A DNA stretch of 64,000 nucleotides from Tricholoma matsutake (Eukaryota > Basidiomycota > Agaricomycetes > Agaricales > Tricholomataceae), in NCBI GenBank assembly GCA_026075535.2, contig AP026539.1, forward strand, positions 11,160,001 through 11,224,000, written 5' to 3'. Position 1 is the first letter of the stretch; each line of letters starts with the position of its first letter. The translations under genes were made by a program, and so were the position numbers. Below the pieces are notes generated by a model. That model ran no database searches, was not told the origin of the DNA, and worked only from the letters and a program-made list of their open reading frames with translations. Shown one piece after another: positions 2,748 through 41,049 of the stretch.

Positions 2748-4532
2748 TGATGATGCTCAACCCGGAAACCCAAACAAAACTCACAAAAGGCTTCGGATGG
2801 TATAACATGAGTCAGAGGAAGGATGTGAGGCCCTCTAGACTTCACCTGTCAGACCGACCGTCAAATAGTCATAAAACAACTGCTTGTCGAAGCAGTTCGA
2901 GGCTAAAAGAATGTGTTTTGAGACTTTGCGATGATTTTCGAGGTGTTGCGATGATTTTCGAGACTTTGCAATGATTTTCGAGATGTCGTGATATTTTTCG
3001 AAGAGGTTTCGAGGAATTTCGAGTGTGCAGATATGTTTGGATGCAAGATTGGGGGACTAGACGAGTAGTAGAACTGACAAAAAGGCTAATCGAGGGAAGC
3101 GAGAGCAAAAATAGCGTAATGCGAGAAATTTTGAGGAATTTTGAGGAAGTTTAGTGTAAAACACCAAACTTCGGACTGAATAAGACTAAACTGTACTCTC
3201 AAATCACTGTGATCTGGGAGGAAGACAACGACTTTCTTGTTTTTCTTTGTATCTAGTACATCTTTTTATATAAAATAAAGAAAGTACCTAAAAAGGCTAG
3301 AGAACATGTGTAGAACATGAGGCAAAAGATATGAGTTAAGGCACAAGGCCAAAAAGGAGACTGGAATCTGAACAAGAAAGATATATATCATATGATGAAA
3401 GAGTAATAAAGGGTATAGAACTAAAAGGGGACTGTCCTTTGTGTATAAACTGCACTAAGTCTTGCAATAATGTGTCCAGCGGGTTCTGTGAGCGATAGGG
3501 ACTTGGAACGAGGCTGACCTACTATCAGCAAGTTTGAGCACGAGTTGGAATACTTCCTGGCGCATGTTATTCCACCATATAGATAACAAATGTGGCGCCC
3601 GATGTCGCTCGCAGTCTCTTGATATCGATCGATGATGCTCGACGATGCTCGACGATGTTCGATCACATTTGATACGATGCTCGACCACGTTTGATGATGC
3701 TCGACCGCGTTTGACAATGCTCGACCACGTTTGACAATGCTCGACAATGCTCGATGATGCTCGTCCACGTTCTACAATGCTCGTCCACGTTCTACAATGC
3801 TCGTCCACGTTCTACAATGCTCGTCCACGTTCTATGATGCTCGTCCACATTCTACAATGCTCACAATGCTCGACTGCGTTTGATTGCGTTTGATACAATG
3901 CTCGCAATGCTCGACAATGTTCGATTGCGTTTGATACGATGCTCAACCGCGTTTGATACGATGCTCAACCGCGTTTGATACGATGCTCAACCGCGTTTGA
4001 TACGATGCTCAACCGCGTTTGATACGATGCTCAACCGCGTTTGATACGATGCTCAACCGCGTTTGATACGATGCTCAACCGCGTTTGATACGATGCTCAA
4101 CCGCGTTTGATACGATGCTCAACCGCGTTTGATACGATGCTCAACCGCGTTTGATACGATGCTCAACCGCGTTTGATACGATGCTCAACCGCGTTTGATA
4201 CGATGCTCAACCGCGTTTGATACGATGCTCAACCGCGTTTGATACGATGCTCAACCGCGTTTGATACGATGCTCAACCGCGTTTGATACGATGCTCAACC
4301 GCGTTTGATACGATGCTCAACCGCGTTCGATACGATGCTCGACCGCATTCGATACGATGCTCGACCGCATTCGATACGATGCTCGACCGCATTCGATACA
4401 ATGCATATTGCACTTGGTAGACTTGGTTGGGAGTGGTCACGCTGCTTCTGGAACCTCGTGCAAGTTATCCGATGTGATTAGAATGTGGTCAAAATGGTGA
4501 ATCGGCCTTTGAGCTGAGGAGACAACCTATCA
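2748..4532 (-). mobile_element. Solo LTR of the A family, expanded to 1785 bp
   Basis: It begins TGATGATGCTCAACC and ends CCTATCA, the same termini as the two LTRs of element A (8076..9196 and 24642..25737). It also shares internal blocks with them, such as the AAACCCAAACAAAA segment near its start and a TAAAACAC segment around 3155. GCGG is present on both sides (2744..2747 and 4533..4536), a target duplication. No internal coding sequence is present, so this is a solo LTR left by LTR-LTR recombination. It is about 660-690 bp longer than the A LTRs because of the tandem array at 3634..4394. Orientation follows element A. Confidence 0.88.
3634..4394. repeat. Minisatellite inside the solo LTR, 22-bp unit
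   Basis: From 3933 the unit GATACGATGCTCAACCGCGT plus TT repeats 18 times with almost no change to 4328, then three copies of a variant with CTCGACCGCATTC follow to 4394. The stretch 3634..3932 holds older, uneven relatives of 20-23 bp built on GATGCTCGAC and AATGCTCGTCCACGTT. The unit core resembles the LTR terminus (GATGCTCAACC). At about the same place the A LTRs have short 10-bp TTTGAAGTCG-like repeats, so this array looks like a local expansion within the LTR. Confidence 0.95.
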
Positions 4533-8075: not shown

Positions 8076-9196
8076 TGATGATACTCGACCAGGAAACCCA
8101 AACAAAACCCACTATAAGGGCTCAAATGGTATAACACTAGTTAGAGGAAGGTTGCCAGGTGGTACTAAATATCACCACTGTAATCCAAGGCTATGAAAAT
8201 GACTCTAGAGGGTGTGTGATGAAGTTTGATGAGGTTTGAGAGTATTCAAAGCATTGCGATGATGTTCAAGAGAAGTTCGATAACAATCGAGAGTGTACAA
8301 AGCCCTGCGATAGCATTCGAGGGAAATTCAATGAAGTTCAGGAGTGTGTGAAGAGATGCAATGATGTTTGAAGAGTGTGCAAAGAGGTGCAATGATGTTC
8401 GAAGAAGTTCAAAGGCCTTTACAGAAGACAAAGACGCTTTCGATGATGGCTGAGGATAGACTATAAGGATGTAGAAAGGCGTTGAGAGAGGATAGACAAT
8501 ATGCGATAGTTTCGAGAAGCTAGTATGAGGAGTTCTAGGAAATTCAGCATAAAACACTGAACTTCGAGACTAAGTCGAGATGCTTGGACTTAAGAGAATG
8601 GCTCTTAAATCAGACGATTGGTGTGAGAGGACAATATATTCTGTTCTTCTAAGTAGCTAGTACAAGGCTATATATGTTTGGGAGAAGTGATACTAAAAAG
8701 GAAATAAAACATGAGGAATACATGAGGCAAGATATAAAACAATAGAGAATCTTTGCAAATCATAGAATAAATGAAAGAAGATGAGAAGGTAAATGTATAG
8801 AGTCATGATTTATCATGGGTACCTGTCCCCATTGATCCAATATATCATCAAGATATCAAAGCGCCACAATCACATCCTAAAATCCCATCATTATGTCTCC
8901 TCATGTCCGGTGGTGCTTGATATGCGATGCACTAACTCTTACAAGGTGTGCTGTGTGTATCTGAAGGGTGGTGTGATAGGTGTACAGTGGCCGAAGGCGT
9001 TTGAAGTGCTGTGAAGTCGTTTGAGATCATTTGAAGTCGTTTGAAATTGTTCGAGATTGTTTGAAGTCATTCGAAATCGATCGAAGTAGTTTTGGAGTGG
9101 TCTAGCGGGGTTCGTAGGTGTTGGGAGCATGTGTGTTGATGTGTTGATGCCTCTGGAGATGCTCCCAGAGCTTAGAGCACACAGTGGACCTATCAT
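8076..9196 (-). mobile_element. 3' LTR of element A (1121 bp)
   Basis: Plus-strand reading begins TGATGATACTCGACC and ends GTGGACCTATCA. It is closely similar over its length to 24642..25737. Around 9008..9082 it holds short degenerate 10-bp repeats of the type TTTGAAGTCG, and around 8225..8410 GATGTTCGA-type repeats. It could also supply antisense transcription for the plus-strand gene that starts 147 bp downstream. Confidence 0.92.
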
Positions 9197-9210
9197 CCTC
9201 CCCCTTACTG
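9197..9210 (-). promoter_or_regulatory. 3' polypurine tract of element A
   Basis: On the minus strand AGTAAGGGGGAGGA abuts the LTR. The 17-nt string at 9196..9212 occurs again, unchanged, at 12361..12377 inside pol. Confidence 0.85.
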
Positions 9211-9343
9211 AAATCCTGACTGTCCCAGTCAGCCAATCAGAGTCACATGCAAAATGTGTGATTGTGTTGAAGCTGTAAACAAAACTCAAAAACTTCTCGT
9301 TCTCATTCCTCAACCTCTAAACTCTCGATACTAGCTTTTTGAA

Positions 9344-10676
9344 ATGTCTCTCCTCGCTGAACTCAATACTGACATCTTCGACTACACCAAATCAATGCCT
9401 GAGCGCAATGCCACCGAAGATTTGGGCTTCAAAGTGTGGGGGAAGGGTTTTTGCGACAGAATAGTATGTTCCTGCATTCATTTTGTCATATGGTTGGCTA
9501 AAACGTTTGGTCTTAGGCTGAATATGATGAGCTCGCTGACAATCTGGGCAAAGAGCACAATCCGGCCATTCAAAAGGTTGTTGATGAAGTTTTCAAGCTG
9601 TATCAGCCATTGGCCCAGTGCGAATGGCTTTCATGGCGTGACAAGCTATTGTTTTTGGAGTTGCATAAAGAGGTGGATCGAGAAGCTGCTGAGGCAAAAG
9701 CAAGGGCAGAGGCTGAGGAAGAGGTGAGGCACATTCAAGAGGAGGAGGAACTAGCTTGAGAGGTGGCAGCTGCTGCTAAGAAGGCGAAACTGGATGATCA
9801 GAGGGCCATTCTTGCCAAGGCTTGCAAAATGGCGCTGGGTGAGTTTTGCACCAAGACCCTTTTGAAGGCCGAGTTGTTGCGATGAAACGAGCAACTAGTG
9901 GCCAAAGCTAAATTGATCGAAGAGGCTGAGGCAGGGGTTGAGGACAAGGACAAGGATGAGGATGAGGAGGAGCTACCCATTGTGCGGGTGACTAAACGAA
10001 AGGTAGTGGAGATCGAGGAAGGCAAAGATGGGGAGGACAAAGTCAAGGACTCCATGGAGCCAAAGCGAGCGAGGTTTGCAATGAGCGGACTGCTCAATTT
10101 CGAGGGTCCGGTGAGTTTTTGTTTTGTTTTCGAAGGGTTTTCGGAGTACTAATCATTTTGTAGTGCGATCAGTGTGCTGGGATGAGATCTCAGCCACACT
10201 GTGTGGTCAAAGAAGGGGCCCCAAAGTGCGTCAAGTGCACTGACACTCTGCAGGGATGTTATTGGGAGGGGGTGTCAAGGAAAGGCTTTTGAAAAGGCGA
10301 GGCAAGGAAATTTGGGGCTGCGAAAGATGTTTCGCAGCTGAAACCAGGTGTGTTTCTTGTTCAGACTATGCAAATTTTTTTCTAACTTTCTGATCAGATT
10401 GTTTTAGCTCTTCACATTCGAGTTGTCGGGCCAGTTGAGCCAGAGGAGATGGTTGCGGGACTGTCAAAACTGTCTATGCCAAAATCAAAGCACAAAAAGC
10501 GGTTGAAAGGGAAAGGCAAAGCAAAGGAGGTATCGTCAAATGATGATATCGAGGTCATTAGCAACGAATGGGTCATTCGACAGAAGATGCTTGTGGCCAA
10601 ATTGGTGCAGAAGAAGGTGGAGATGGAAGTTCTAGGTAGGGAGATAGAACTTTTAGAAGTTATGATAGAGGAGTAA
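9344..10676 (+). pseudogene. Antisense spliced gene of element A: coiled coil, Zn2Cys6-like cluster
   Basis: The gene lies between the integrase end and the 3' LTR, on the strand opposite gag-pol. Four exons are proposed: 9344..9463, 9517..10110, 10164..10347 and 10408..10676, 388 codons. All three introns are GT-AG, 53-60 nt, and two have a clear branch site (ACTAAT, CTAAC). TGA stops at 9757, 9883 and 10290 all fit CGA to TGA decay. Codons from about 100 to 150 are charged and helical (VDREAAEAKARAEAEEE). An acidic stretch and PKRAR-type basic motif follow. Exon 3 opens with six cysteines spaced C-x2-C-x8-C-x8-C-x2-C-x6-C (codons 239-270), close to the fungal Zn2Cys6 cluster. Exon 4 has KSKHKKRLKGKGKAK and a C-terminal helix (VEMEVLGREIELLEVMIEE). 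I infer a nuclear, possibly DNA-binding accessory protein. Element B carries a counterpart. Confidence 0.78.
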
Positions 10677-10929: not shown

Positions 10930-12290
10930 AGGGAATAATCATTCATCTTCAAAGTCCAGAAGGTCTTCGGGAATATCTTCGTCGATGTTTGAAGTGTTTC
11001 GAAGATTTTCGAGATGTTCAGAGTCAATATCGAGGAAGTTTGGCAGCAGGGGAATTGATTTTTGTGCAAAATAGGGAAGGAGTTGGAAGGCTGCAACTGA
11101 TCAGTGAAATACTGATCCATTGAGTTCACAGATGATGTAGGCTCCTCCATAGTTTCGATCGATGACGATGAGTGGACCTAAATATTGAGGTCGCATCTTG
11201 CGATTGAGAGATTTCTGGATTTGCGTGTTGCGAAGTAGGACCAGGTCACCTTTTTCGAGGTCATAGTCATGCATTGTTCATTTGTGATTGAGTTTGAAAT
11301 GTTTCGCAGCTTCGAGTCGAGCAGTATAGACTTTCGAATAGAGAATTTCAAGGTCGAATGATCATTTCTGTAGTGCTATTGCTCTTCGAGCAATGAGATT
11401 GGTTGTCGATAAAATAGAATCAGGAGGGGGTTGCAAGTATGTTGCTTCGGAGATGTCGAGCGGGATTAGGGGGTGTGATCCTGTAATTGCAAAGTAAGGA
11501 GAGCAACCCATGCATCTACAAACCATAACTCATTCTGCCCAAAACACCGAGTGTGCTCCAGCTGACCATTTACTCTGATCTCCATCAACTGCTTTGAATA
11601 ATGATTGTTGAATATCAAAGTGAGCTTGTTCGACGATTCCATTCGCACGAGAGTTGTAGCTGGTAATTTGAATGTGGTTAATGTGATATTGTTTTGAAAG
11701 GTACTCCAACGCTGCGATGAATGCTGATCTATTATCTCTCACAATTTCGTATAGCGAACCCCATCTTCAAATGATATCTTCAAAGATCCAGTCCCTGAGG
11801 GTCATGGCATTTTCTCGTCGAAGGTTTCGCCACTTGGGATAAGTCATTAGTGAACATCAACCTTGTACAATATACTTGAATCCGCTCGAGGCAGGCATTT
11901 GCATGGTATCGATGTAGACTTTGCCGAATAAAGGTGCAGGTGTGGCGACGGTAGGTGGGATAAGGAGATTTCGAGTTTGTCATAGTTGGCACAGGTGGCA
12001 CAGGTGGCAAGTGCGAATATACCATGCAATGTCTGCTTTCATGTTAGGCCACCAGAATCATAGGGAAATAATGGCTTTCATTGTGAAGACCATCTTGTGT
12101 CTGATATCATCGTGAGCTGCATGAATAACCTCAAGATGACGTTCGGGAATTGCAATGATTTTGTGAGCTCCATGCAAGTCTTTCCTCCAAAGTTTACTGC
12201 AATCTAAGAAGAATTCAGTGCAATATTGAACAAAGGTAGCATATTCGGAATCTGATAAATCTGGAGGTCGTACCAAATCCTCTAACCATT
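10930..12290 (-). pseudogene. Integrase of element A, degraded
   Basis: The HHCC region lies near 12100-12180 (RHLEVIH, HDDIRH). The core is recognisable at 11780-12000 (cDNA-binding segment before KWR) and at 11530..11742, where HIQITSYNSRANGIVEQAH gives the region of the third catalytic residue. The C-terminal domain at about 11000-11280 reads [13 protein letters not shown] and [10 protein letters not shown], and the frame ends with an acidic tail (LLDFEDE) and TGA near 10930. No chromodomain is seen, unlike B, F and G. Several stops and at least two frameshifts make it non-functional. Confidence 0.82.
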
Positions 12291-12360
12291 TTCAAACGCG
12301 AATTAATCTTTCATCTTCCTTTTTCGCATTGTTTGTTCATGGGACATCGTCATAGGTCAG

Positions 12361-12377
12361 ATCCTCCCCCTTACTGA
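12361..12377 (-). promoter_or_regulatory. Internal (central-type) polypurine tract of element A
   Basis: The 17 bases at 12361..12377 are identical to 9196..9212, which span the 3' polypurine tract. It falls between RNase H and integrase. Lentiviruses and yeast Ty1 use a second, central polypurine tract in a comparable place. Whether this one primes is inference from the exact match. Confidence 0.6.
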
Positions 12378-12423
12378 GATCTGAAGAGAGGGAGAGTGTC
12401 GAAACTCGATAGGAAGTGAAAGG

Positions 12424-12954
12424 TCAAGTCGTAACAGGATTGATTTGGTGTACAAAACCATGAAGATGGTCGATCCAGTCTCTGAAATCATTTTTGTTAT
12501 CGAACTGGTCATCTTCATCTTGTGGAGGACATCTTGAAAGTCCGTCTGGACCATGATGTGTACCTGCAACATGAACTAACGTGAAGTGAAAAGTGAGGAT
12601 TGAGACGATCCATCGATTGATGCTAGTGCTAGGTGTGATATCAGGGTTCAAGAGCATGCCTTTGATATACCTTGCATCAACTTCAACAATGAGGTTTCGG
12701 ACCCCTATTAGGTACAATTGAAGTGCTCCGAGAGCGCGATATAGACCGTAGAGTTTGAGTTTTGCTTGCGAAAATGTGGATTCACAGTTGTTAAGCGTGA
12801 TCGAGCTGAATTGACTGTAATATCGTTTTCGAGGGTTGTCGGGATCGCATTGCGCAAGAAAGAAACCAATAGTGATGTATGAAGTATCAACTGATAGGAT
12901 AACTGGGGCGTCGGATGAGTAGTCGATAGCGCAAATTGCTGGGGAATTGATCAA
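12424..12954 (-). pseudogene. RNase H domain of element A
   Basis: An open stretch of 176 codons. ILSVDTSYITIGFFLAQ provides the first catalytic Asp region, NNCESTFSQAKLKLYGLYRAL the Glu helix, and VEVDARYIKGML the next Asp. It ends with the typical linker THHGPDGLSRCPPQ. RNase H removes RNA from the RNA-DNA hybrid during cDNA synthesis. It belongs to the same polyprotein as the RT upstream, but no single frame links them now. Confidence 0.88.
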
Positions 12955-12999
12955 TGCTTGCTTCAGGTCTTCCTGTGCTGCGATTTGTTTCAGTCCAAA

Positions 13000-14115
13000 A
13001 TTGAAAGGGACATCTTTTCGTGTAAGGTGTATTAGAGCTGTAGCACATTGAGCGAAGTTTTGAATAAAGATATGACAAACTCCAATAGTTCCTAGAAATG
13101 TCTTGACTTCAGTAAGGCTTCAACAAGGCCCCCATTTGCTAACCGCTGCGATGCGAGTGGGATCAGCCATACAACCTTCGATATTGCATTGATTATTTCA
13201 GGGATGCAAAGGTAAAGCTTCGGACCAGAAAATGTTCCTCCACAATACTTCATGCGTTGGACTATACGATTTAGATTCCCGAAATGTTCCCAAATGAAGC
13301 GTCGAATGCCTGGATTATTGGCGATCATTTTGTAAGATCCTCCGATAGTTCGATATTCTGATTTTGGACCCTTCATCGGTGTGTCGTTGATGTAAGGGAT
13401 GGTGATATGAGGGATTTCGGGTTGTAGGATAAACATTATGTCGTCATGTAAGATTGGAACCGAGTTTGTCCAACCCATCGGTAGGGTGATGATTCAAAGC
13501 ACTCCAAATGGTGTCTGAAACATCATTAGATCTCGAGATGATTCTGCAACTTTCCTTTCATCGAATGCAACATATAGGTCCAACATTCCACCACAAGCGC
13601 ATCCTACAAATTGTTCAGCTAGATGCTCGGGAATTGGGACGATGCCAGAGTGCTGAATCATTACTTGATTAAGAGGCTCGAGACTGTGAATGATTCAAAG
13701 TGATTTTGCATCTTTCTTTGCAACGCAAAACCATTGCGACCAATATGACAAGTTCAATGACTCATATACTCCTGCTTCTATCTTCTTTTTCAGCATCTTG
13801 CAGATCTGTTCGTACAGACCAGGAGGTATAGGGATATTACGTTCGACCCATGGAGTGTGAGGAGTAACAGGGAATTCGATAGGAGGAAAGAAGTTGGGGC
13901 AAAAGCTTCCTTGTTCTTGTTCAGTCCATGCAAAACCCGTTTCGTGATTTCGAATACAATCGTGTATAAGCTTTTGTTCTTCTGGCCATAGGAAATTTCC
14001 AGGATGGTTTTTGTCGATAATAGCTTTGCATTCGAGTGTATATCAGGGAGAAGGGACGAATGATGGGGGGTGAGGATTGAGTTTTGGCATTTTCTCGAGG
14101 GGTCGCCAGTGATTG
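13000..14115 (-). pseudogene. Reverse transcriptase of element A, catalytic Asp lost
   Basis: RT fingers and palm are spread over several frames; the best piece is 13092..13478 (MGWTNSVPI, then PYINDTP, RRFIWEHFGNLNRIVQRMKYCGG). The active-site box reads Y-I-N-D at 13383..13394 where Y-I-D-D is expected. The Asn codon arises from GAC by one G to A change in a CpG context. This removes a metal-binding Asp, so the enzyme would be dead even without the stops. Confidence 0.85.
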
Positions 14116-14481: not shown

Positions 14482-15153
14482 CTAGTTGCGAAAATCTTTG
14501 TGAACTACTCTTCTTCGTTGATTAGATTGGGGAATAGTCAGAATAGTGCAGGATTGTATCGAGTTTGGAGTGAATATAGTTATCGTCTGCACTTCATTTC
14601 GATAATTCTTGACCGTACTCTCTGTGAGAACGTCGAATGGTCGTCCAAGCAGAATGTCATATGCTGGATTGCAGATGATGTGTATTTGCATATAGAGAGT
14701 GATGCTACCGACTTTGCAAGGTACGTTCCGTGCTAAATCTAGACTCTGGTCAATACCACTGTTAGCCGATTGTAGAGGGATGTGTATTGAAGGATCATAT
14801 GTGAGACCGAGTTCATGACAGACTTCTTCCGACATTGCGATGATCGATGAACCCGGATCGACTACGCTTTCGACTGGATTTCTGCCATTGATGTTCATAA
14901 TAACCAATCTAATAGAATGTGATTCCTTCACTGCAATAAAAGGTTCAGGTATTTTTCCAGGGCGAAGACTGCTAATATAGGTTTCATAAGGGTCGTCAAT
15001 TACAAATATGTCATCGTGAAGGAGATTCGTAGTGTTATTTCCTTCAGGTTGCTGGATACGATGCGCAGTGACCTGTTCCTTCCATTTCATATGAACTTCG
15101 GGCAATAGCGAAAGTGATTCTTCAGGGGTTAGAGTGATAATTGGTGTTTTCAT
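14482..15153 (-). pseudogene. Aspartic protease region of element A
   Basis: A 223-codon open stretch. VVDPGSSIIAMSEEVCHELG is the active-site region, with D-P-G in place of the usual D-[ST]-G. ILLGRPFDVLTES is the second conserved loop (LLGRPF). I think D-P-G is usual in this fungal lineage and not a lesion, but that is from memory. The protease would cut the Gag-Pol polyprotein. It lies just downstream of the gag region that element B split. Confidence 0.82.
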
Positions 15154-15452
15154 TGATTGGGTGAAGACATCTTCAGTGATTTTGTCCTTTTAAATGGGGG
15201 CTTGGGTATGGTATGATGGGCCATCTTTCGCTTTTCCTGTCGATGTGAAGTTGCATTCGTGAGGAGGTAGGTATGAATTTTCTTTAGCGCCATTGTAGGG
15301 ATGTATTACTGGTTGTGATGATTTCTCGGAGGTCGAAGATGGTGCCAAATTCGAAGTAGGTGGGTTGGTCACTGTGGACAATATTGATGGTGCAGGTAGT
15401 TGTGGGACGAATCATTCGACCGATGCAGGGATCAAGGGCCGTGAGGTAGGAG
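15154..15452 (-). pseudogene. Gag-protease linker of element A, left of insertion B
   Basis: The minus frame at 15190..15381 is Ser/Pro/Thr-rich (NPPTSNLAPSSTSEKSSQP) and ends at TAA 15190. It is the continuation of the gag region on the other side of element B (23206 onward). There is no motif of its own. Confidence 0.6.
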
Positions 15453-15457: not shown

Positions 15458-16197
15458 TGTTATGAACTGATCCTAGAGGTCGCTTTGGAATCCAACTGGA
15501 CACTGCGGGTGATGATAGTGGGAGTTGTCAGGTCGATGTGGATTCTGCAAGAGGGGAAACAGAAAGGACTTGGCTTCAGCTTGTAAGAAGCTGGGCCCTT
15601 CACTTCATCTGGTATCCTAATTTCAAGTTGAAGGTCTGGAGGTAGGAGCAGGAAAGTGTGGGTAAATGCAGGGAGGAGTACGGGGGGACTTAGGTTAAGT
15701 TTAGATGAGACTAGAACTTCAGAGGGAGACTAGAGGTTGAGTCAAATGGAGTTCAGACTCTTAGAGGACAGGGGTTGGAGTAGGAGGAGGTTTTAGATTG
15801 GCAGGGTAAAGTCAAGTCTATGTCAATATACGAACTGAGGAGTACAAGGCGAAACTAACTAAGCTTAAATACTGTAGTCTGGAATAATGCGGAACAGGAA
15901 CGAAGACTGCGGCAGTGTCTCAACTGCGGCAGTGTCTCAACTGCGGCAGTGTCTCAACTGCGTAGATAGATTATCTAGTGGGAGCCACACAGGAATCCGT
16001 AGTTGAATTTGCAATAGAGACGGCAGCCCTGGGAAGGCAGCCATGGATGCTGTACAAGGCGGCCTGGTGCACAGCAGTGTGGGCAGTGCAAGGCAGCTGG
16101 GAACAAAAACGGAAGGTGTAGACAAAAGTCGGGTTCAAGGTGCAGAAAAGGATTGGACAGATGTGGGTTCCAATCAGGCGAGGAACGGTTCTTGACA
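15458..16197 (-). mobile_element. 3' LTR of element B (740 bp)
   Basis: Plus-strand ends are TGTTATGAACTG and GGTTCTTGACA, near-perfect inverted repeats. It matches 22518..23200. It has a short triplication of a CGGCAGTGTCTCAACTG unit at about 15911..15960 that the other LTR has only once, which explains much of the length difference. Confidence 0.95.
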
Positions 16198-16210
16198 GTA
16201 TTTCCCCCTT
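16198..16210 (-). promoter_or_regulatory. Polypurine tract of element B
   Basis: On the minus strand AAGGGGGAAATAC runs into the LTR start TGTCAAGAAC. This sets the minus orientation. Confidence 0.85.
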
Positions 16211-16331
16211 AGTGCCGAGCCTACGAGGCACATGAGGGTTTGAGTCCAAATGAGGAAGTTGGTTGAAAATTCCGAATGCAGCAATTGGTTGAAAAATTTT
16301 GTTGACTTCCTACTCCCATCACCTATACAAA

Positions 16332-17314
16332 ATGTCCCCCCCAGCAGGTTCTGCTCAACTCAAGCTGGCCGCAATGAAGGCTCAGTATGAACAGAGGGAG
16401 TGGGAGATGAAGGAGCAGATGGAACAAGAGGTGAGGGAACTGGAGGAGGCAGCAAGGGAGGAGGAGTGTAGGGCACAGGAGGCACAAGAGGCAGCAGAGG
16501 AGGCTGCGAAGGTGGAGGAGGCGCGCCAGGCAGCAGTGTGGAGAAAGGAGGCTTTGGCCACAAAACGAGCGGAGAAAAAGCGGGCAGCTGCGGCCGCGGG
16601 TCTGGAGGATGAGGCAGAGGGGAGCAAGTCCCCAAAGAAGAAGAAAGTTGCCAAGTCCACGGTGTGAGTGGGGTCGGAGGAGTCAGAGAGTCCAGTGTGG
16701 GTGCAGGCTGCCTTGCCTTGCAAAAGGTGCGTACTGGTTACCTTTCTCAGTCTTCTCTTACTGACAAGTGGCCCAGATGCAAATATCAAAAGGTCACGTG
16801 TTTCAAGATGGGTGCGAGGGGATGTGTGTGCAACAACTGCATGCACATCAAACATAAGTGCGAGGAGGTAGTGTGGGAGGGGCAGGAAGCCCCTGCAGCA
16901 AAAACAGTGGGAACAACAGGGGCAACCGGGGATAACCCAGAGGTAATGCAACAGATGATGAAGGTGATAAGGAAGGGATTCACTGAGGTGGCCAATGCAG
17001 TGCGGGAGTCGATGGGGGAGATCTGGGATGCTTTGGACCCAGAGTGGGTGGAGGAAGAAAGTGCCAAGGAGGAGAGCGACGAGGGTGACGAAGAGGTGGA
17101 GTGAGCAGTGCGAGAGTCCCAGCAGGAAAGATGTGGGATCTGCAAGTCCAGAGATGACTGGGCGGCCTTCCAGAGGTATCTGGAGAAAAGGCGGGTGGAT
17201 GATGGGGAGGAGAGTGAGAGTGGAGGTGAGGAGGGTGAAGAGAAGGACGAGGGCAGAGAAGAGGGCAAAGTTGGGGAGAGGGTGATGAAGACAGAGAGGG
17301 AGAAGCAGAGGTAG
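16332..17314 (+). pseudogene. Antisense spliced gene of element B: coiled coil plus Zn2Cys6 cluster
   Basis: Two exons, 16332..16726 and 16777..17314, give 310 codons; the 50-nt intron is GTGCGT..CAG with CTGAC as branch site. The gene is convergent with pol, which ends 90 bp away. Codons about 10-95 form a long charged helix (EQREWEMKEQMEQEVRELEE and onward), then KSPKKKK resembles a nuclear signal. Splicing places six cysteines at codons 130, 133, 140, 150, 153 and 160: C-x2-C-x6-C-x9-C-x2-C-x6-C, exactly the Zn2Cys6 spacing of fungal transcription factors. The C-terminal half is acidic with a CGIC pair. TGA codons at 16665 and 17102 fit CGA decay. Without splicing a frame runs through the intron (16664..17104), but then the first two Cys are out of register. 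I infer a nuclear regulatory or integration-partner protein; no function is shown. Confidence 0.8.
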
Positions 17315-17403
17315 TGTAGGGATCCAGTTGGATCCAAAAAAAAACTTTTTAATGAATTTTGTTTCTGAGTTCAGACTGAGTGAATAAGTAACATGAATAG
17401 ACT

Positions 17404-18873
17404 TTAAGTGGGTAATGGTCCAGGTTTCTGCGGGTAGTGAGTGTGAAAATCTGCAAGGAGTTCTTGGGTGTGGTCAAGCTCTGTAACAGGTAGCCAGGAG
17501 GTCTCCTCATCGGTTCCCTGGTAGCCTTCCCATCGGATGAGGTAGAGAATCTGGCAGCGATGTCGGTTGTCAACTTTGGAGTCGAGGACTTTGGCGATCT
17601 CATATTTGAGCTCGTTGTCGATGGTGATTGGAGGAGGTGGAGGTTGTACTCGATTTGGAATTGTGTTTGGGGAGTGTTTCTCTAGTTGAGAGACATGGAA
17701 AACAGGGTGAATGGCCCGCATGTGATCCGGGAGCCGCAGGGTGACTGAGTGAGTGCCCGGGTGGGCGATGATTTCGAAGGGGCCATGGTGCTTTTCAGAA
17801 AGTTTCTTGGAAGGACGAGTGGTGCAGATATTTTCCACAGTGACATAGGCAGAGTCACCAACGTTGAAGTCAGGTGTGGGTGCCCGATGTTTGTCCACAG
17901 GACCTTGATAATGCTCTTGAGTGGCTGCAAGCTGTTTCCGAAGCTCCTGATGAAGGTTGTCTAAGTCAACAATGAACTCATGGGCGTGCTGTGAAGCTAA
18001 GCCGCATTCTGGAAAGACGGAAATGTTCGGGTGATAGCCTTTGTTGGCAAAGAAAGGGGATACACCTGTAGAGGCAGAGGGAGCATTGTTGTAGGCAAAT
18101 TCGCCTAAGGGAAGGAGATGGGACCAGTCGTCCTGCTGGTAGTTACAGAAAATTCGGAGGTATTGCTCCAAGGTCTGGTTGATCCGTTCTGTCTGGCTGT
18201 CTCCTTGCGGGTGATAGCCAGAAGTGAAGTGGATCCGCATGTCGAGCACTTTTCTGAGGGAGTGGAAGAAGTGAGAGACGAACTCGGATCCCCGGTCGCA
18301 AGTGACGTGCGACGGAACGCCATGCTTGGAGAAGACGTGGAGGACAAACAGGTTGGCTAGTTCTTGGGCTGTGATTTCATTGACAGTTGGGATGAAGATG
18401 CCTTGTTTGGTGAGACAGTCAACGATGACCAGGATAGCGGTGTGACCATCAGAGTCAGGTAGTTGCTCAATGAAATCCATGGAGATGGAGTTCCAAGGTC
18501 GTTCCAGAACTGGAAGTTGCTTTAGAAATCCATAGGGCTTGTGTCAAGGTGATTTGGATCACTTACAAGTCGTACAGGATTTGCAGAATTCCTGCACAAA
18601 GGTGTGGAGGTTTGGCCAGACATATTCCCGGCAGACAAGCTGCTGGGTTTTATTTTGTCTAAAGTGGCCAGAGAGGATTTGATCATGTTTGTACTGAAGG
18701 ACCTTGAGGCAAAGATCCATGACGTCTGGAACATAAATCCAGTCGAAGTGGCGGAGGAGACCTGCCTCGTCTATGGTCCAGTTGGGGTCGACAGGTGTCG
18801 GAAGATGTGTGGATGATAAGGGGTCAAGGGGTAGGGAGGTGCGGATGTCGTGGTGAAGTTTCTCAACATCCAT
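17404..18873 (-). pseudogene. Integrase with chromodomain of element B
   Basis: The HHCC zinc finger is in 18559..18873 (HDQILSGHF, then CKSCTTC). TGA stops fall between it and the core at about 18500-18560. The core 17404..18480 is open for 358 codons with D in MDFIEQLPD, D in VTCDRGSEF and E in GDSQTERINQ, so the DDE triad is intact. The C-terminal chromodomain reads YEIAKVLDSKV, then LYLIRWEGY and ETSWLP, with the aromatic residues expected for binding a methylated histone tail. The frame ends at 17404. Confidence 0.93.
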
Positions 18874-18954
18874 GATTACTGCTTGTTGAAGGATGGATGT
18901 GGCGAAATAGGTGGCACAAAGGGAAGAGGTGAGCTGTTCCTGTGTGAATACAGG

Positions 18955-20145
18955 TCAGAAGTTGGTTGGGTTTATGGAGGCGAAGTCGCTATTTCCCCCT
19001 TTGCGGTAGACGTCCCAATGTCTAGTGAGCACGTCTGGCTTGGCCCCTAATTTTCCAGGGCAGAAGTGGATGATGAAATTGAACTGGGAAAGGTACTTAG
19101 ACCAACAGGCCTGGCGGTGGGTGAGCAACTTGGTAGTGCTGAAGTACTCAAGATTTTTGTGGTCGGTGACCACATCAACTGGGTTTGTGGAACCCTCAAA
19201 GTACTGCCGCCAGTGTTTGAAGGCTTCAAGGATGGCCAAGAGTTCCTTGTCATGAATGTCATAATTTAGTTCAGCGGGATTGAAAGAGTGGGAATGAAAA
19301 GCAACCAGATGGATTTCTCCATCCGCAGTGTAAACCGAAAGGATAGCAGCTAGGGCATAGTCAGAAGCATCGGTTTCAAGTACCATCTGTGAGTCGGGTA
19401 CCCATTGAGTTAAGATGGGTGCATGAGTGAATTCTTGTTTGAGCCTTTCAAAGGTGTCGCGGCACTTCTTGTTGAAGTCCCAAGGTGTGGATTTCCACAT
19501 CAAGCGGGTAAGTGGGATGACAATGTCTGAATAGCCATTAATGAAACAGCGGTAAAAGTTGCAAAAGCCTAAGAAGGATTGTATATCCTTAACTTTCCTA
19601 GGCTTGGGCCAGTCAAGCACGGTTTTGACTTTATCCTCGGACATCCGCGGTCCATCTGGTGAAAGGATGAAACCTAAATATTTGATGGTGTCTTTGTGGA
19701 ACTCACATTTCTGTGGAGAGGCATAAAGTCCATTTTCCCGGAGACGGCGGAGGACTTCTTTGATGTGAGCCCCATGCTGGGACTTGTCGTTGGAATAGAT
19801 TAGGATGTCATTGAGGTATACTATGACACAAACATCCAGCATATTGCTGAAGATGTCGTTCATAAAACGCTGGAATGCTGCGGGTGCATTAGTGAGTCCA
19901 AAGGGAACCACCAACCACTCGAAAGATCCGTAGCGGGTGCGGAAAGTAGTTTTCCATTTGTCACCGTCTGCAATGCAGACTAAGTGGTAAGCGTGCTGCA
20001 AGTCTATCTTGGTGAACAAGCAGGCTTTTTGGGGAGAGTCGAGGAGGTCAGAAATGAGAGGAAGTGGGTAGCAGTCTTTCTTCATAAGGCGATTAAGTCC
20101 TCGGTAGTCGACACAAAGTTGGAGACTACCCTCCTCTTCTTGACG
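18955..20145 (-). pseudogene. Reverse transcriptase-RNase H of element B
   Basis: From MKKDCYPLPLISDLL the frame is open for 376 codons. The active-site box is Y-L-N-D (19807..19818) where Y-L-D-D is expected, again one CpG-context transition. RNase H follows (VLETDASDYALAAIL, then NYDIHDKELLAILEAFKHWR and VVTDHKNLEYF), ending at PDVLTRHWDVY. Immediately upstream, near 20146, one G is missing from a run of purines, which throws the protease frame and RT frame apart. Both lesions would abolish cDNA synthesis. Confidence 0.93.
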
Positions 20146-20960
20146 AAGAGAATCGGAGTGCCATGTGGAGACTTGGATGGGCAGATGAAACCTGAGCAGT
20201 CATTTTCATCAATAAAGACTCGTAAGGCTTCTAATTCAGAGGGGGAGAGAGAATACATGTGGCCTGGAGGCGGAGGAGTATTGTCTTCTGTCTCTATCTT
20301 GAGGTCATAAGACCGATGCAGAGGAAGGGTATCCGCTTTAGTCTTATTAAAGACATCAGCGAATTCGTGATACTCGGGCAGAATATCAGAGAGGTCAGAT
20401 GAGTTCATGGATTGGGTGGAGCGGGCAGATAACCCTTCTGGAGCGAAGGTCATCTGAAAAGCTACTGCCCCAGGAAGTTTGCTAGCATGTGCATAAGCGG
20501 CAGCGTTGATGAAAGAGATGTCGGGAGGTGTAGACTTAGGAGGAATGGGGGATTCAGAAAATGCAGAGTCGAGGATTTCTACCGGAAGATTTGGGGACAA
20601 AGGTGACGTCAGGGGTGCTGGACCTCTATGATCTGCAGAGTGGAAAGCGAGTTGGCTTGAAGACCAGTCAATCAACAGATTGTATTGCTTCAGCCAGTTA
20701 TGACCAAGTACGGCAGAACAGGAAGAGTCGAGCGAGGTTACATAGAATGACAAATTGAATACTTCGCCGGCAGGGAAGGTGACTGGAAGTTTGATGATCT
20801 GAGTTATGGTGGAGTTGCAAGATCCATCAAAGAGTCGTAAACTGATCGGGTTAATGGATTCCATGCTGAGTTGGTTATTCAACACGAAAGAGGAGTCAAG
20901 GAAGCAGTGGGAGGAGCCAGAGTCAATAAGGGTTCAGAAAGGGGCGGAAGAGTCAGGAAA
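20082..20960 (-). pseudogene. Protease and RT N-terminus of element B
   Basis: The active site LIDSGSSHCFLDSSF lies at about 20890-20930, in frame with the open stretch 20082..20885. CSAVLGHNWLKQYNLLIDW is the conserved loop after it. The C-terminal part (PEYHEFADVFNKTKAD, then SGFICPSKSPHGTPILFVKK) is the connection to RT. A TGA precedes the protease box. The gag frame differs from this one, so either an indel or a programmed frameshift lies between 20960 and 21220. Confidence 0.87.
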
Positions 20961-21119
20961 GGTTAAAAGAATGGTTAGGGAGTCAGGGTCAGAAAGAGCG
21001 GATGCGTTGAGACAAATGTAGGCAGCCAAGTGGGTAAGGTCAACGCAACCCCCAGCCCCAGTGGCAGTATCCTGAGGGTTGCAGACTATTTTTCTGAGTC
21101 CGTAGTCTCAGGAATGACA

Positions 21120-22285
21120 GTGGACACACAGGCTTTTGCGGCTTTGGATTTCGGGCAGTTTCCTGCTATGTGCCCTTCCTCACCACAGTAGAGACAAAGT
21201 CGTTCTCTCATGCAACATTCTCATTCCTCCCCAGTAAGCTTGCCGTTCTTCCCCAACTTATCGGAGATGGACGACTTGGGCTTGTCCCGGGAAGTGTTCT
21301 TTGTCGTGGAAGACTGCTGGTTGGAGGTGTTACCATGGGCAGAGTTTGAAGAGGCTTGGTTTGTCGATGGGGAAGGGCTTTTGGAAGAGTCCTTCCGACT
21401 AGAGTTAGTGATGTTACTGGAATTCTTTGTTTCGAAACAGGATTCATCTTCTTGCATCCAGTAGATGTCATCACTGTCCTGCGCTTTCAAGTGCAGTTCT
21501 GCAAGAGTATTGGGTTTACCACCCTGGAGAACTTCTATGTGAAGCCGGAGCGGAAGACTGTGGAAATAGCGGTCATGAAGGGCTGCTTCATTCCAGTTGA
21601 CCCTAGAAGCTAATTCCCAGAAGTCAACATTGTATTTCGTGATACGACCACCTTTCTTCATTGCTAAGTCAGAGAGAGCTTTTTCCGCATCTCCGACTGG
21701 GTTGTGTGGACCAAAGTTGCTTTCCAGCTCGGCGAGGAAAGCTTCATAGTCCCACATCCAGTGTGTGGAATCTGTCAGGTCATTCAGACCAGGCTCAAAC
21801 CAACTGAGAGCTGATCCCTTAAGATAAGAAAGGATGAATATGATCTTTTTCTCATCAGAGGAAAATACATGCGGATGGTCATGGAAATGAAGATTGCAGG
21901 AGACTAGGAAGTCTCTAAGTTTCTTCGGATTGGCGCTGTCAAAAGTGTCGGGGTCGCGAACTTTGATTTTCTCGGTCTTGGGTGTGTTATTCTGATGAAG
22001 GGTGTGGATACTCTCCGAGAGGTTGTAAAAGACATCTATGAACCTATCCCCTGGGTCAGGGTTTTCCCCTGCAGGAGGTTGATCCTCAGGATCATTGGGA
22101 TTGGGGTCACCCCCAGGGTCATCAGGACCGCTAGGGTCGTCGGGTCCGCCGGGGGGTCCATCCTCTAGACCAGGATCTTCCAACCCAAAGGGTTCAGGCT
22201 GGCTGATGCCCCCTATGTACTCAAGGGGAGTTCTTGATCGAAAACCTTCTGGGTTGCCAGAAGGTTGCAGGGCATGGGTGGACAT
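21120..22285 (-). pseudogene. Gag of element B
   Basis: ATG at 22285 opens 354 codons. The N-terminal third is Pro/Gly/Asp-rich (GPPGGPDDPSGPDDPGG). The capsid-like region contains FILSYLKGSALSWFEPGL and WDYEAFLAELESNFG, characteristic of Ty3-type Gag. After a TGA at 21221 the same frame gives a zinc knuckle CLYCGEEGHIAGNC (about 21155-21195), CX2CX4HX4C. Gag packages the element RNA. Confidence 0.92.
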
Positions 22286-22504
22286 GAGATTGGCACTGAT
22301 TGAGGGGGCTCCTGAGCCGATTTGTCAGAAGATGTTTGAGGGTCTGGAAGACACTCCAAACGTAGTGGCGGGTCGAGGGTCAGAAAGGGTGGATCGCTGG
22401 ATTGCAGAGATCCCTGGAATAGTACTGGCACGTTGGGAATTTCTTGTTGCGCGCTGGCGGGTCTCGGTAGGGGTCATAGAGAGGAAATGGATGAGTGAAG
22501 TGTG

Positions 22505-22515
22505 AGTTTGTATAT
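22505..22515 (-). promoter_or_regulatory. Self-priming primer-binding site of element B
   Basis: Two bases inside the 5' LTR, the minus strand reads ATATACAAACT. The predicted transcript start in the LTR (22873 downward) reads AGTTCGTATAT, complementary at 10 of 11 positions; the one mismatch is a CpG-type change. There is no TGG as for a tRNA 3' end. The arrangement copies that of Tf1. Confidence 0.6.
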
Positions 22516-22517
22516 AC

Positions 22518-23200
22518 TGTTAAGAACTGATCCTAGAGGTCACTTCGGAATCTGACCGGACACTGCGGGTGATGATAGTGGGAGTTGTCAGGTCGATGCG
22601 GATTCTGCAAGAGGGGAAACAGAAAGGACTTGGCTTCAGCTTGTAAGAAGCTGGGCCCTTCACCTCATCTGGTGTCCTAATTTCAAGTTGAAGGTCTGGA
22701 GGTAGGAGCGGGACAGTGTGGGTAAATGTGGGGAGGAGTACGGGGGGACTTAGGTTAAGTTCAGATGAGACTAGAGCTTCAGAGGGAGTTCAGACTCTTA
22801 GAGGACAGGGGTTGGAGTAGGAGGAGGTTTTAGATTGGCAGGGTAAAGTCGAGTCTATGTCAATATACGAACTGAGGAGTACAAGGTGAAACTAACTAAG
22901 CTTAAATACTGTAGTCCGGAATAATGTGGAACAGGAACGAAGACTGCGGCAGTGTCTCGACTGTGTAGATAAATTATCTAGTGGGAGCCGCACAGGAATC
23001 CATAGTTGAATTTGCAATAGAGACGGCAGCCCTGGGAAGGCAGCTGTGGATGCTGTACAAGGCAGCCTGGTGCACAGCAGTGTGGGCAGTGCAAGGCAGC
23101 CAGGAATGAAAATGGAAGGCATAGACAAAAGTTGGGTTCAAGGTGCAGAAAAGGATCGGACGGATGCGGGTTCCGATCGGGGGAGGAACAGTTCTTGACA
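22518..23200 (-). mobile_element. 5' LTR of element B (683 bp)
   Basis: Plus-strand ends are TGTTAAGAACTG and CAGTTCTTGACA. On the minus strand a TATTTAAG box lies about 35 nt before the AGTTCGTATAT start proposed at 22873, giving a compact promoter. It is followed on the right by the CTGTT duplication. Confidence 0.95.
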
Positions 23201-24641: not shown

Positions 24642-25737
24642 TGATGATACTCGACCAGGAAACCCAAACAAAACCTACTATAAGGGCTCGAATGGTATAA
24701 CACTAGTTAGAGGAAGGTTGCAAGGTGGTACTAAATATCACCACTGTAAACCAAGGCTATGAAAATGACTCTAGAGGGTGTGCGATGAAGTTCGATGAGG
24801 TTCAAGAGTATTTGAAGCGTTGCAATGACGTTCGAGAGAAGTTCAATAATGATTGAGAGTGTACAAAGTGCTGCGATAGCATTCAAGGGAAATTCAATGA
24901 AGTTCGGGAGTGTGTGAAGAGGTGTGATGATGTTTGAAGAGTGTGCAAAGAGGTGCGATGATGTTCGAAGGCCTTTATAGAAGCCGAAGACACTTTCGAC
25001 GATGGCTGAGGATAAACTATAAGGATGTAGAAAGGCGTCGAGAGAGGATAGACAATATGCGATAGTTTTGAGAAGCTAGTACGAGGAGTTCGAGGAGATT
25101 CAGCATAAAACACTGAACTTCGAGACTAAGTCGAGATGCTTGGACTTAAGAGAATGGCTCTTAAATCAATTGGTGTGAGAGGACAATATATTCTGTTCTT
25201 CTAAGTAGCTAGTACAAGGCTATATATGTTTGGGAGAAGTGATACTAAAAAGGAAATAAAACATGAGGAATACATGAGGCAAGGTATAAAACAATAGAGA
25301 ATCTTTGCAAATCATAGAATAAATGAAAGAAGATGAGAAGGGAAACATATAGAGTCATGATTTATCATGGGTACCTGTCCCCATTGATCCAATATATCAT
25401 CAAGATATCAAAGTGCCACAATCGCATCCTAAAATCCCATCGTTGTGTCTCCTTGTGTCTGGTGGTGCTCGATATGCGACACACTAACTCTTACAAGGTG
25501 TGCTGCGTGTATCCAAAGGGTGGTGCAATAGGTGTATGGCGGCCAAAGGCATTCAAAGTGCTGTGAAGTCATTTGAAGTCATTTGAAGTTGTTTGAGATC
25601 ATTTGAAGTCGTTCAAAATTGATCAAAGTAGTTTCAGAGTGGTCTCACAGGGTTCGTAGGGGTTGGGAGCATGCATGTTGATGTGTCGATGCCTCTGGAG
25701 ACATTCCCAGAGCTTAGAGCGCACAGTGGACCTATCA
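24642..25737 (-). mobile_element. 5' LTR of element A (1096 bp)
   Basis: It begins TGATGATACTCGACC and ends GGACCTATCA, like 8076..9196, with scattered substitutions of mostly transition type. It is flanked on the right by the short remainder of the hAT-like host element. Confidence 0.92.
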
Positions 25738-27938: not shown

Positions 27939-28300
27939 TGTTGAGAATGACACTGTGAGCACATGCAAATGCCGTATTGCCAAATACGGATCTTGGCATG
28001 TTAGTTGATGCATGTCCTATATGTGGTGCATCCCTTTGATGCACATGTTTGTATCTGTGTCATGGATACCTTTATACCATTCTCCTTTATCTAACATGAA
28101 TCATATATATACAGTAGACAGATACCAGATCACCTCAGTCACTTATACAGAGACTGAGGTGAGTACCGACTTATTATTCAGTAGCAAATGATTACTTACT
28201 GTACTTATAGTTCACTTTTGTTGTACTAGGTACAGTACTAATACAGTCACTTATACAGAGACTGAGTTCACTCTTGTTGTACTAGGATTAATTTTATACA
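27939..28300 (+). mobile_element. 5' LTR of Copia element D (362 bp)
   Basis: It starts TGTTGAGAATGACAC and ends ATTTTATACA. It is homologous to the LTRs of element C in opposite orientation. It carries the same internal duplication of a CAGTCACTTATACAGAGACTG-type segment as C's 3' LTR. A TATATATA box lies near 28105. Confidence 0.9.
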
Positions 28301-28311
28301 GGTTATGGACC
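28301..28311 (+). promoter_or_regulatory. Primer-binding site of element D (initiator tRNA-Met anticodon region)
   Basis: GGTTATGGACC follows the LTR directly. GGTTATGGGCC, the form in element C, is complementary to the anticodon stem-loop of initiator tRNA-Met. Drosophila copia primes from a half-molecule of that tRNA in the same way. Confidence 0.7.
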
Positions 28312-28518
28312 ACTCCCGTCGCATTTAGACAACGGTAGAAAATCTCCTAGCCACTCGGCGTTTATCTATGTCATTTTTGATTGGACCCCTAGATCACTTA
28401 GGTCTCAGATCACAACTTGACGGGATCAGACTACCCGACCCATCTCCCTCCCCTTTGTCTTCCTTGACATCGCCCTACTCGATGCCCGCCTGCCATTACC
28501 ACTTCCGCTTTCTCCACT

Positions 28519-30428
28519 ATGGTTGCTGAAACAAACCCACCTTCTATTTCTCTCATCAAGTTGTCAGTTCAGTACTCAGGGGAGAAGTTGGACAAACTTA
28601 AGTCTAATTACAAAGAATGGTGCAAGGAGATCACAATCGCCCTCTCGCTGAATGGACTCTATGAATATGTGACTGGTGATATTACCTCACCTACATCTAC
28701 AGAAACCTGTGCTCTTGCAAACTGGGCAGCTAACTCATGTCTCACATATGCCTTTCTTGCTTCCAGTGTTTCCCCATCCGAGCACCCATTCCTTGATATC
28801 AAGAAGGGCCCTGATGTAAATTGGAAAACTCTCCAAGATCATCATCAGAAGGAAGGTCCAGTCTGCCAGGTCCAATTGCTTCAACAGGCGCTTTCCATCC
28901 AGTGCTCAAAGGATGTGCCACTCCCTGAAATCGCAGAGAAGATTTGCACTCTCATTGAGCGTGCTTTTGCCATGGGGGACATAAAAGTGGACCTATTCTG
29001 TTGTATTGCCCTCCTTAATTCCCTTAGCGACAACTGCCCACATGCACAATCCATTATATCCTGCGACATTGCCGCCTCAACTGCCAGTTCCCCATATGGG
29101 TCAAAGGACATCCGCCTGTTCCTGGAGAATGAACAGTCACTCCTTGAGAATGACCAGCATCATGATTCCTGATCCACCATTGCACTTACTGCTTGGACCA
29201 AACCAAACAAAGTATCTAACACGCCCACTTGTGGGAATCCTGTCTGTAAAAAGACTGGGCATACTACAGAGTACTGCATCAAGCCTGGAGGCGGCATGGC
29301 CAGGAAGACCATCAATGAACCCAAAGCCACATGGAAGCTGGCACTCAAGAAGAAAGCACTGGGTACTGCTAGCTCCAGGATCTCAATTACAGGAAAGGAT
29401 GTCAATGGATGTGCCTTCACGGTCATGGTTGATTCTGAATCCCCTGTACCTGCCACCTCCAGCCCGGAATTTGCTGGCCTTGCATGCGACCCCCTTCCCA
29501 CTGCTTCCATCAAAGAGGTTGAATATGAGGGATGGATTGTTGTTGAGGAGGAGGCATCTACCACTCTTGACTGGAACCAACATACATCCATGCATACTGA
29601 TGGCGTGTTCACTGTTGAACCACTTACTCAGACCCATCAATCTCACCTTTTACTGGACAAGCATCCCTTTATTGTCGACTCTGGTGCAACTGTACATATC
29701 TCACCTGACAGATCAGATTTCCTTACCCTTTGTCCGACTCAACCACGTACCATTAGAGGGGTGGGAGGTTCCTCCATAGCCACCATTGGTGTCAGGGATA
29801 TCAAACTCCAGATAGCCTGAGGTGCATCAATTCTCTTACATAATGTGCTCTATATCCCAAACTTGACTGTCTGACTCATCTCCATAGGAGTTTTGGCTGA
29901 TGACTCGACCATTGCCACACACTTCAATAACATGGAGTATTGGATTACGGACAAGTCCACCAGTGCACTGGTTGCACGAGGATCCAGACTCTCCAAGAAA
30001 CCTGCTCACTCAACCTCCACTCTGCCGCTGTTGACCATGCTTTTTCCATACACAAATCCCCAAACTTGGAAACATGGCACCACCATCTTGGCCATGCCAA
30101 CTACCAATCCATCTGGGATATGGCCAAGAAAGGGATGCTCACAGGTGCACCTCTTGTTTCCTCACCAAAACCACCTAAGTGTGAATCATGTGTGCTTGGA
30201 AAACAGATGAAGATGCCTGTCCCAAAAAGACGTGAGGAGGGGCCTGGTCACAAGGCGACAAGGAAGTTGCAGAAAGTATGGGTTGATTTGTCAGGACTGC
30301 ATGCAGTGAAGTCTCATACCAGGAATTCATATGTAATGGATATAGTTGATGACTACACCTCCTTTCCTTGGTCAATACCCCTTTGCAACAAAGATGATTC
30401 TTTTCCCAAACTTAAAGCCTGGGAACTT
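28519..30428 (+). pseudogene. Copia element D gag-protease-integrase, 3' truncated
   Basis: ATG 28519 opens Gag (VQYSGEKLDKLKSNYKEWC, LNGLYEYV). A zinc knuckle with C-x4-C spacing (CGNPVCKKTGHTTEYC) follows. Protease has FIVDSGATVHISPD. Integrase shows HHHLGHANYQSIWDMAKKG, CESCVLGKQ, then VDLSGLHAVKSHTRNSY and DIVDDYTSF. TGA codons at 29170 and 29818, and a +1 shift near 29995, interrupt it. Homology to element C stops at KAWEL (30428), just before the second catalytic Asp; the rest of integrase, RT and the 3' LTR are missing. Confidence 0.92.
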
Positions 30429-30569
30429 GTGTTTGAGTGGATTCCACTCAGAGTCCAGTCGGACTGGACTGGGACTGGACTGGCAACTTTGCAGCAGTTG
30501 GCTGGTGACCAGTCCCAGTGGACTCCAGTCAGACTCCAGTCGGAGTCCGACGGGAAAGGTGGGGGAGTG
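30429..30569. repeat. CACTA-like terminal/subterminal fragment
   Basis: Packed with GGACTCCAGTC and its complement. It ends GGGGGAGTG followed by TAAAGACCTC. 52611..52615 has GGGGCAGTG followed by the same TAAAGACCTC, and 50317 starts CACTGCCCC. CACT ends with many subterminal repeats are a CACTA trait. The other end is not identified. Confidence 0.45.
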
Positions 30570-30574
30570 TAAAG

Positions 30575-36235: not shown

Positions 36236-36246
36236 CTCCTCCTCAC
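36236..36246 (-). promoter_or_regulatory. Polypurine tract of element C
   Basis: On the minus strand GTGAGGAGGAG runs directly into the LTR start TGTTGAGAATC. Confidence 0.85.
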
Positions 36247-36257
36247 ATGGAATCGTA

Positions 36258-38806: not shown

Positions 38807-38817
38807 TTCACCATTGT

Positions 38818-41038: not shown

Positions 41039-41049
41039 GGCCCATAACC
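41039..41049 (-). promoter_or_regulatory. Primer-binding site of element C
   Basis: On the minus strand GGTTATGGGCC follows the LTR end TTTTCTACA. It fits the anticodon stem-loop of initiator tRNA-Met, which contains GGCCCATAACC. Confidence 0.75.

Follow-up and report, generated by a model that had tools for sequence, protein, structure and literature searches.

The stretch of Tricholoma matsutake DNA considered here (the window, 64,000 nucleotides long) contains a minus-strand Gypsy-type element, element A, delimited by self-BLAST from a pair of LTRs that are 90.3% identical (Table 1). With its LTR pair, and with aspartic protease, RNase H and H2C2 integrase following one another in order, it is a Ty3/Gypsy element. 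Of 1096 aligned sites its LTRs differ at 85, the differences being 77 transitions (36 of the CpG type) and 8 transversions, and inspection of its ends by eye revealed no target-site duplication. The element is interrupted by a second Gypsy-type element nested within it (15458-23200), which has a repeat pair (15458-16197 and 22518-23200, about 91% identical) and carries long open frames at 17404-18543 and 18955-20199.

Between the integrase and the 3' LTR, on the strand opposite to gag-pol, lies a further gene. The four exons and three GT-AG introns (53, 53 and 60 nt) given for it in a preliminary description of this DNA were correct on re-checking, as was the spacing of six cysteines directly after intron 2 (C-x2-C-x8-C-x8-C-x2-C-x6-C), and the reported convergence of the gene with the integrase, which ends at about 10942 on the minus strand, was borne out. 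The same description spoke of an open frame of 388 codons: the length and the limits hold (ATG at 9344, TAA at 10674-10676), but the frame is not open, being broken by in-frame TGA codons at 9757, 9883 and 10290. Because of these three codons and the stops in the integrase, the window copy is a pseudogene in a decayed element, although the gene as such is real. The gene frame has three stops in its 388 codons, against 9-28 in the other five frames. The N-terminal block of the protein is well conserved. Exon 4, which is Lys-rich and by eye ends in a heptad-like helix, occurs in different versions, and the difference in exon 4 type between copies with like exons 1-3 (L036 and L042) suggests recombination; L042 resembles a mosaic of the groups I and II discussed below.

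Table 1. Coordinates of element A, its antisense gene and the intervening control region (positions in the window)
Feature	Position	Strand	Remarks
3' LTR of element A	8076..9195	-	self-BLAST; starts TGATAGG on the minus strand
Polypurine tract AAGGGGGAGGA (minus strand)	9196..9206	-	directly inside the 3' LTR; from sequence
Perfect dyad TGACTG-TCC-CAGTCA, 15 nt	9217..9231	.	candidate operator or RNA hairpin
TATA-like element of putative antisense promoter	9274..9279	+	TGTAAA; about 70 bp before the ATG; proposed from its position
Exon 1	9344..9463	+	ATG; 40 codons
Intron 1	9464..9516	+	53 nt, GT-AG
Exon 2	9517..10110	+	helical/coiled-coil region; TGA at 9757 and 9883 in the window copy
Basic motif KRAR, possible nuclear signal	10063..10074	+	just before the Cys cluster; from sequence
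Intron 2	10111..10163	+	53 nt, GT-AG
Exon 3	10164..10347	+	six-cysteine cluster, then QGCYWEGVSR; TGA at 10290
Cysteine codons of the cluster	10164-10259	+	within exon 3
Intron 3	10348..10407	+	60 nt, GT-AG
Exon 4	10408..10676	+	Lys-rich stretch 10482-10526; C-terminal heptad-like helix by eye; TAA
Integrase of element A	10942..12480	-	tblastn; Pfam Integrase_H2C2 on a piece; in-frame TGA stops
RNase H region, element A pol	12427..13119	-	Pfam RT_RNaseH_2, E=6e-10
Aspartic protease region of element A	14485..15189	-	Pfam Asp_protease_2, E=3e-8
5' LTR of element A	24642..25737	-	self-BLAST

The T. matsutake genome (161,040,721 bases in 13 contigs) has at least 96 places that match the window protein and at least 51 more that match a query from a second group of copies, 147 places being listed in all (the window-protein search scored 106 of 1318 candidates, the second-group search 110 of 1385 and the integrase search 150 of 658). 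The merging of gene matches into places was manual, and those on contig C4 at 5.386 and 5.388 Mb may represent a single interrupted copy. The C-terminal part of the integrase gave at least 150 matches. Gene and integrase lie within 4 kb of each other at 67 of the 96 and 29 of the 51 gene places listed and at 96 of the 150 listed integrase matches, and the two are convergent in all 96 of these listed neighbours, with no other orientation seen. They are likewise convergent in all of 20 ten-kb loci that were fetched (those ranking highest as gene matches, to place 22, without place 17 and without the window, which is place 2), and in 17 of these an LTR begins 139-155 bp before the ATG; in the exceptions the LTR is inverted (L023), displaced (L013) or was not found (L017). 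Locus L013 holds a group I gene and, some 6 kb away, a second gene belonging to group III, for which protein identity is 30% along most of the sequence. When ten of the 54 listed integrase matches that had no listed gene were fetched, eight proved to have the gene in some version and the other two no more than remnants. These ten, like another 14 loci, were picked by hand for divergence or for few stops, and none of the fetched sets (20, 14 and 10) is a random sample. Two more groups of copies, III (L043, L044, L046 and L049) and IV (L045, L048 and L050), have the exon sequences in the same order and, where intact, the same cysteines. That the antisense gene is real is hardly open to doubt. 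It appears in at least four divergent element groups of this one basidiomycete; with the constant distance from the LTR and the single orientation, this shows an old fixation inside the element, so that a Gypsy-type lineage of T. matsutake has the gene as a fixed accessory.

Evidence for selection on the protein comes from an alignment of 34 copies (L020, with its large insertion, was left out), of which 18 from group I and 13 from group II entered the counts after L027, L039 and L042 had been dropped; pairs of copies and recurring indels are non-independent events in all of these figures. The three introns lie at the same places throughout, their GT and AG ends intact in almost every copy, and their positions are common to groups I and II at only 41-48% protein identity. 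Differences between the two groups fall on codon positions 1, 2 and 3 in shares of 0.27, 0.23 and 0.50, and once CpG-type transitions are removed it is still the third position that contributes most, whichever exon or comparison is taken. The dN/dS ratio is 0.13 between groups I and II (80 of 234 pairs with finite dS), 0.28 within group I (153 pairs) and 0.33 within group II (73 of 78 pairs); the other five frames give 0.31-1.48 between the groups, the lowest value belonging to the reverse frame that shares third positions. Relative to the window copy, indel length is divisible by three in 111 of 135 cases within exons and in 8 of 136 within introns, every one of the six cysteines survives in 31-33 of the 34 copies, and stops occur at 0.75 per 100 codons in the gene frame against 1.9-6.6 in the others. 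Two of the findings that, by the preliminary description, would refute its reading are contradicted: other copies, both the aligned ones and those of the divergent groups, do carry the frame, and substitutions have a strong codon-position bias. The proposal that the element encodes an antisense protein gene of a spliced type is upheld by the introns, dN/dS and indel phase; purifying selection has maintained the gene, whose protein has about 370-390 residues. Nineteen of the 34 copies are in frame, and a single one is both in frame and free of internal stops, which indicates that most copies have decayed after insertion (some of the frame losses may be misplaced ends, since exon ends were set by alignment to the window copy). 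The gene diverges much more than the integrase: in groups II-III, protein identity to the window copy is about 29-48% for the former and 64-82% for the latter.

What kind of protein is it? Zn2Cys6 proteins have the canonical spacing C-x2-C-x6-C-x5..12-C-x2-C-x6..8-C, with a first loop of six residues, and a binuclear zinc fold of two short helices. The matsutake spacing, which is found in groups I-IV (the cluster is also present in the database relative P0004), departs from this consensus in having a first loop of eight residues instead of six. The cluster is like that of Zn2Cys6 factors in its six cysteines in two C-x2-C halves and in having a coiled coil and basic residues nearby, and differs in the longer loop, in its mid-protein position and in the lack of a match to PF00172. 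The label 'Zn2Cys6-like' thus suits the layout of the cysteines and not Pfam membership. Membership in Pfam Zn_clus (PF00172) is ruled out, as the cluster reaches no curated Pfam cut-off: the Pfam search of the family proteins gave no PF00172 match above the curated cut-off, all matches being sub-threshold (zf-CRD, at E 0.046 and 0.097, among them), and none of 81 genomic Zn_clus matches, among the matches listed, lay within 4 kb of the 147 gene places. A search by sequence for a related solved structure in the PDB found none. AlphaFold models of two database relatives (P0004 and P0006) contain a long helix, the coiled coil, with pLDDT 90-98; the cluster is modelled at a pLDDT of only about 40-60, as a beta hairpin instead of two short helices, a fold that is not reliable. 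A basic motif like KRAR is found in most of 11 copies compared and in the relatives P0002, P0004 and P0005, the stretch concerned being missing from P0006.

These relatives belong to a set of thirteen (P0001-P0013) found in database searches, with jgi, lgn or ena as source label and for the most part from short contigs; among viral contigs no relative was found. P0004, from a contig of 111,691 bases, has the full cluster after what appears to be an unspliced intron 2. In P0006, exon 2 reads directly into exon 3, with FEGL joined to CDRC at the predicted junction; this matches what a spliced message would give, and is suggestive only.

The 148 bp between the LTR edge and the ATG in the window copy (the ATG being 149 bp from the edge) have several features of a control region. 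Most of the polypurine tract with adjoining bases (CCTCCCCCTTACTGAAATYCTGAC, at most one mismatch) occurs at 473 places in the genome, and its reversed control at none. The dyad, 10 nt from the polypurine tract and 113-127 bp upstream of the ATG, keeps its exact sequence in 30 of the 34 copies of the alignment; the whole genome has 384 occurrences of TGACYGTCCCRGTCA and one of its reversed control. Among the matches listed, the dyad stands just upstream of 33 of 40 gene places checked, and 67 of 100 listed dyad sites have no listed gene just downstream, the gene lists being lower bounds. Of the four group III copies that include the dyad region, two have changes in both of its arms and the other two have lost the symmetry, and a hand tally of the 100 listed sites found 19 unsymmetrical; covariation is not proved, because the change involves CpG sites and because of these 19. 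In sense RNA the region can fold as a hairpin (-14.5 kcal/mol, z -1.83), and since this hairpin lies beside the polypurine tract the dyad could also have a role in reverse transcription. The TATA-like element keeps a constant place, reading TATAAAG (the canonical form) in two copies of group IV and TTTAAG in copies of group III, and the region includes a pyrimidine-rich leader. Between groups I and II the 148 bp differ at 0.17 per site, compared with 0.50, 0.25 and 0.50 for introns 1, 2 and 3 and 0.55 for third codon positions. The LTR is about as similar (matches between element A and L026 or L052 are 81-86% identical), so that the conservation of the leader may partly reflect shared or recombined ends and not a regulatory site. 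The suggestion that an antisense promoter lies in or near the 3' LTR gains from the promoter-like sequence between polypurine tract and ATG, where the TATA-like element and the dyad are the basis for a putative promoter of the gene's own.

How might these parts work together? The explanation that we prefer, with a probability of roughly 0.55, is that a spliced antisense mRNA gives rise to a nuclear, dimeric, nucleic-acid-binding regulator of the element. A promoter between the polypurine tract and the ATG would yield the spliced message; the protein would dimerise through its coiled coil and enter the nucleus by means of its basic motifs, and the six-cysteine, probably zinc-binding, cluster would bind nucleic acid. 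A plausible target is the conserved dyad upstream of the gene's own ATG, binding to which may regulate both that promoter and expression of the element. The protein, in short, is predicted with a slight leaning to be a nuclear DNA-binding regulator. Introns would persist through retrotransposition since only their complement is present in the genomic RNA, and in that form the spliceosome cannot remove them. An origin of copies from sense RNA predicts that introns are not precisely lost, and such a loss is seen in none of the 34 aligned copies (in L027 the exon 3 region is missing). A bolder version, which we put forward only tentatively and regard as doubtful, would have a self-contained antisense module: a promoter, an operator formed by the dyad next to the polypurine tract, and a gene with three introns whose product, a six-cysteine DNA-binding protein of a new type, binds the dyad. 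This would be an HBZ-like circuit that evolved independently in mushrooms.

The Lys/Arg-rich stretches and the cysteine cluster would also suit general nucleic-acid binding, and the main competitor, rather unlikely in our judgement, is a genuine accessory factor that does not regulate transcription: a chaperone of genomic RNA or cDNA, a protein for import of the preintegration complex, or one that steers integration. The dyad, only 10 nt from the polypurine tract and able to form an RNA hairpin, may serve reverse transcription, and a review, in its available parts, proposes such roles for plant antisense ORFs (PMC7264820). A factor needed in the particle would, however, be more simply made from sense genomic RNA, and this gene is preceded by its own promoter-like sequence and, unlike gag-pol, cannot be translated from that RNA. 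It is improbable, on the present evidence, that the protein instead counters or exploits host silencing, as an anti-silencing factor or as part of an antisense RNA and protein system tuning copy number. The heavy decay of copies in this genome and the transition-rich LTR differences make silencing pressure likely, and the protein diverges much more than the integrase; but no Pfam match indicates a silencing factor, and fast divergence has other causes too. The spliceosomal type of the introns, and the lack of a tblastn-detectable copy in the other Gypsy elements of the window, might suggest a host gene captured once or recently, or a host family hit by element insertions, which is very improbable because the constant LTR distance, the single orientation of 96 out of 96 listed neighbours and the four divergent groups contradict it. 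As for a chance open frame or a non-coding antisense transcript, which the three stops in the window copy and the internal stops in most aligned copies might favour, codon-position bias, intron conservation and indel phase refute it for the family, and a chance ORF is ruled out.

LTR retrotransposons are usually viewed as gag-pol machines. Boty elements occur in ascomycetes, and Boty-like elements with a gene called brtn, from Botrytis cinerea and Sclerotinia, are said to have been described by Zhao et al. in 2011. To the extent of the text available, the sources place brtn of Botrytis and Sclerotinia Boty antisense between pol and the 3' LTR (PMC7264820, PMC8365987) and give Boty a chromodomain (PMC4227169). 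This is, as in matsutake, an extra gene antisense to gag-pol in the pol-3' LTR interval of a fungal Gypsy element; Boty differs in its chromodomain and its ascomycete host, and the comparison is by description only, not by sequence. The accessible parts of PMC7264820 and PMC11963269 describe plant genes termed aORF-3R in maize Grande (gene23), rice RIRE2, Silene Retand and PvRetro13; the Grande product is nuclear and has its own promoter, and Retand TRP28 is predicted to bind DNA. The matsutake gene shares with these its site between integrase and 3' LTR on the opposite strand and its presence, conserved as a protein, in many copies of the family, the plant genes being found in most copies of a family. 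The likeness is again one of description and not of sequence, the plant domains being different (TRP28, SMC and others), and the word 'intron' is absent from the main text, as available, of PMC7264820 and PMC11963269. HBZ/APH of HTLV is made from a spliced antisense message arising on the 3' LTR side, and the proteins act in the nucleus and on proviral transcription, in the portion of the source available (PMC10186651). The resemblance (spliced antisense RNA and a nuclear-acting protein) is a functional analogy only, whose matsutake side is predicted, and HBZ/APH are bZIP or non-bZIP proteins of retroviruses.

The preliminary statement that no Gypsy element with such a gene had been described accordingly fails for the antisense placement, in which Boty brtn, Grande, RIRE2 and Retand have precedence: an antisense gene between pol and the 3' LTR was already known in plant elements and in fungal Boty, on what is available of those sources. 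What is new here is the presence of three introns, the conserved six-cysteine cluster that the Pfam Zn2Cys6 model does not recognise, and the occurrence in at least four basidiomycete element groups. Judged by title and the start of the abstract, with subscription journals mostly uncovered, no paper listed describes an antisense gene or a Zn2Cys6 gene in a Gypsy element of a basidiomycete, which is weak evidence of novelty. A selected, spliced accessory gene in four mushroom element groups would be a fungal counterpart of retroviral antisense regulators, and its 147 or more gene places are an abundant natural data set on which the function of such genes can be tested. The introns record the passage of copies through sense RNA, and a fast-evolving protein next to a slower integrase invites tests for conflict with the host. 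Annotators should be cautious, as such exons could pass as host genes.

Finally, we draw attention to other repeats in the window. A minisatellite (3656-4404; about 20 repeats of 22-bp units) is preceded by an LTR-like sequence, which at its end (2748-2825) shares 82% identity with the end of the element A LTR, and a string resembling a primer site, TGGCGCCCGA, lies between that end and the minisatellite. A repeat of about 400 bp is found in four places (51538-51939, 53073-53474, 57638-58038 and 34177-34660), with three of the copies 94-95% identical, and is a candidate MITE or solo LTR. The regions 28265-31123 and 35937-41365 contain several pol-bearing retroelement fragments and repeats in opposite orientations, 72% alike and by eye Copia-like.
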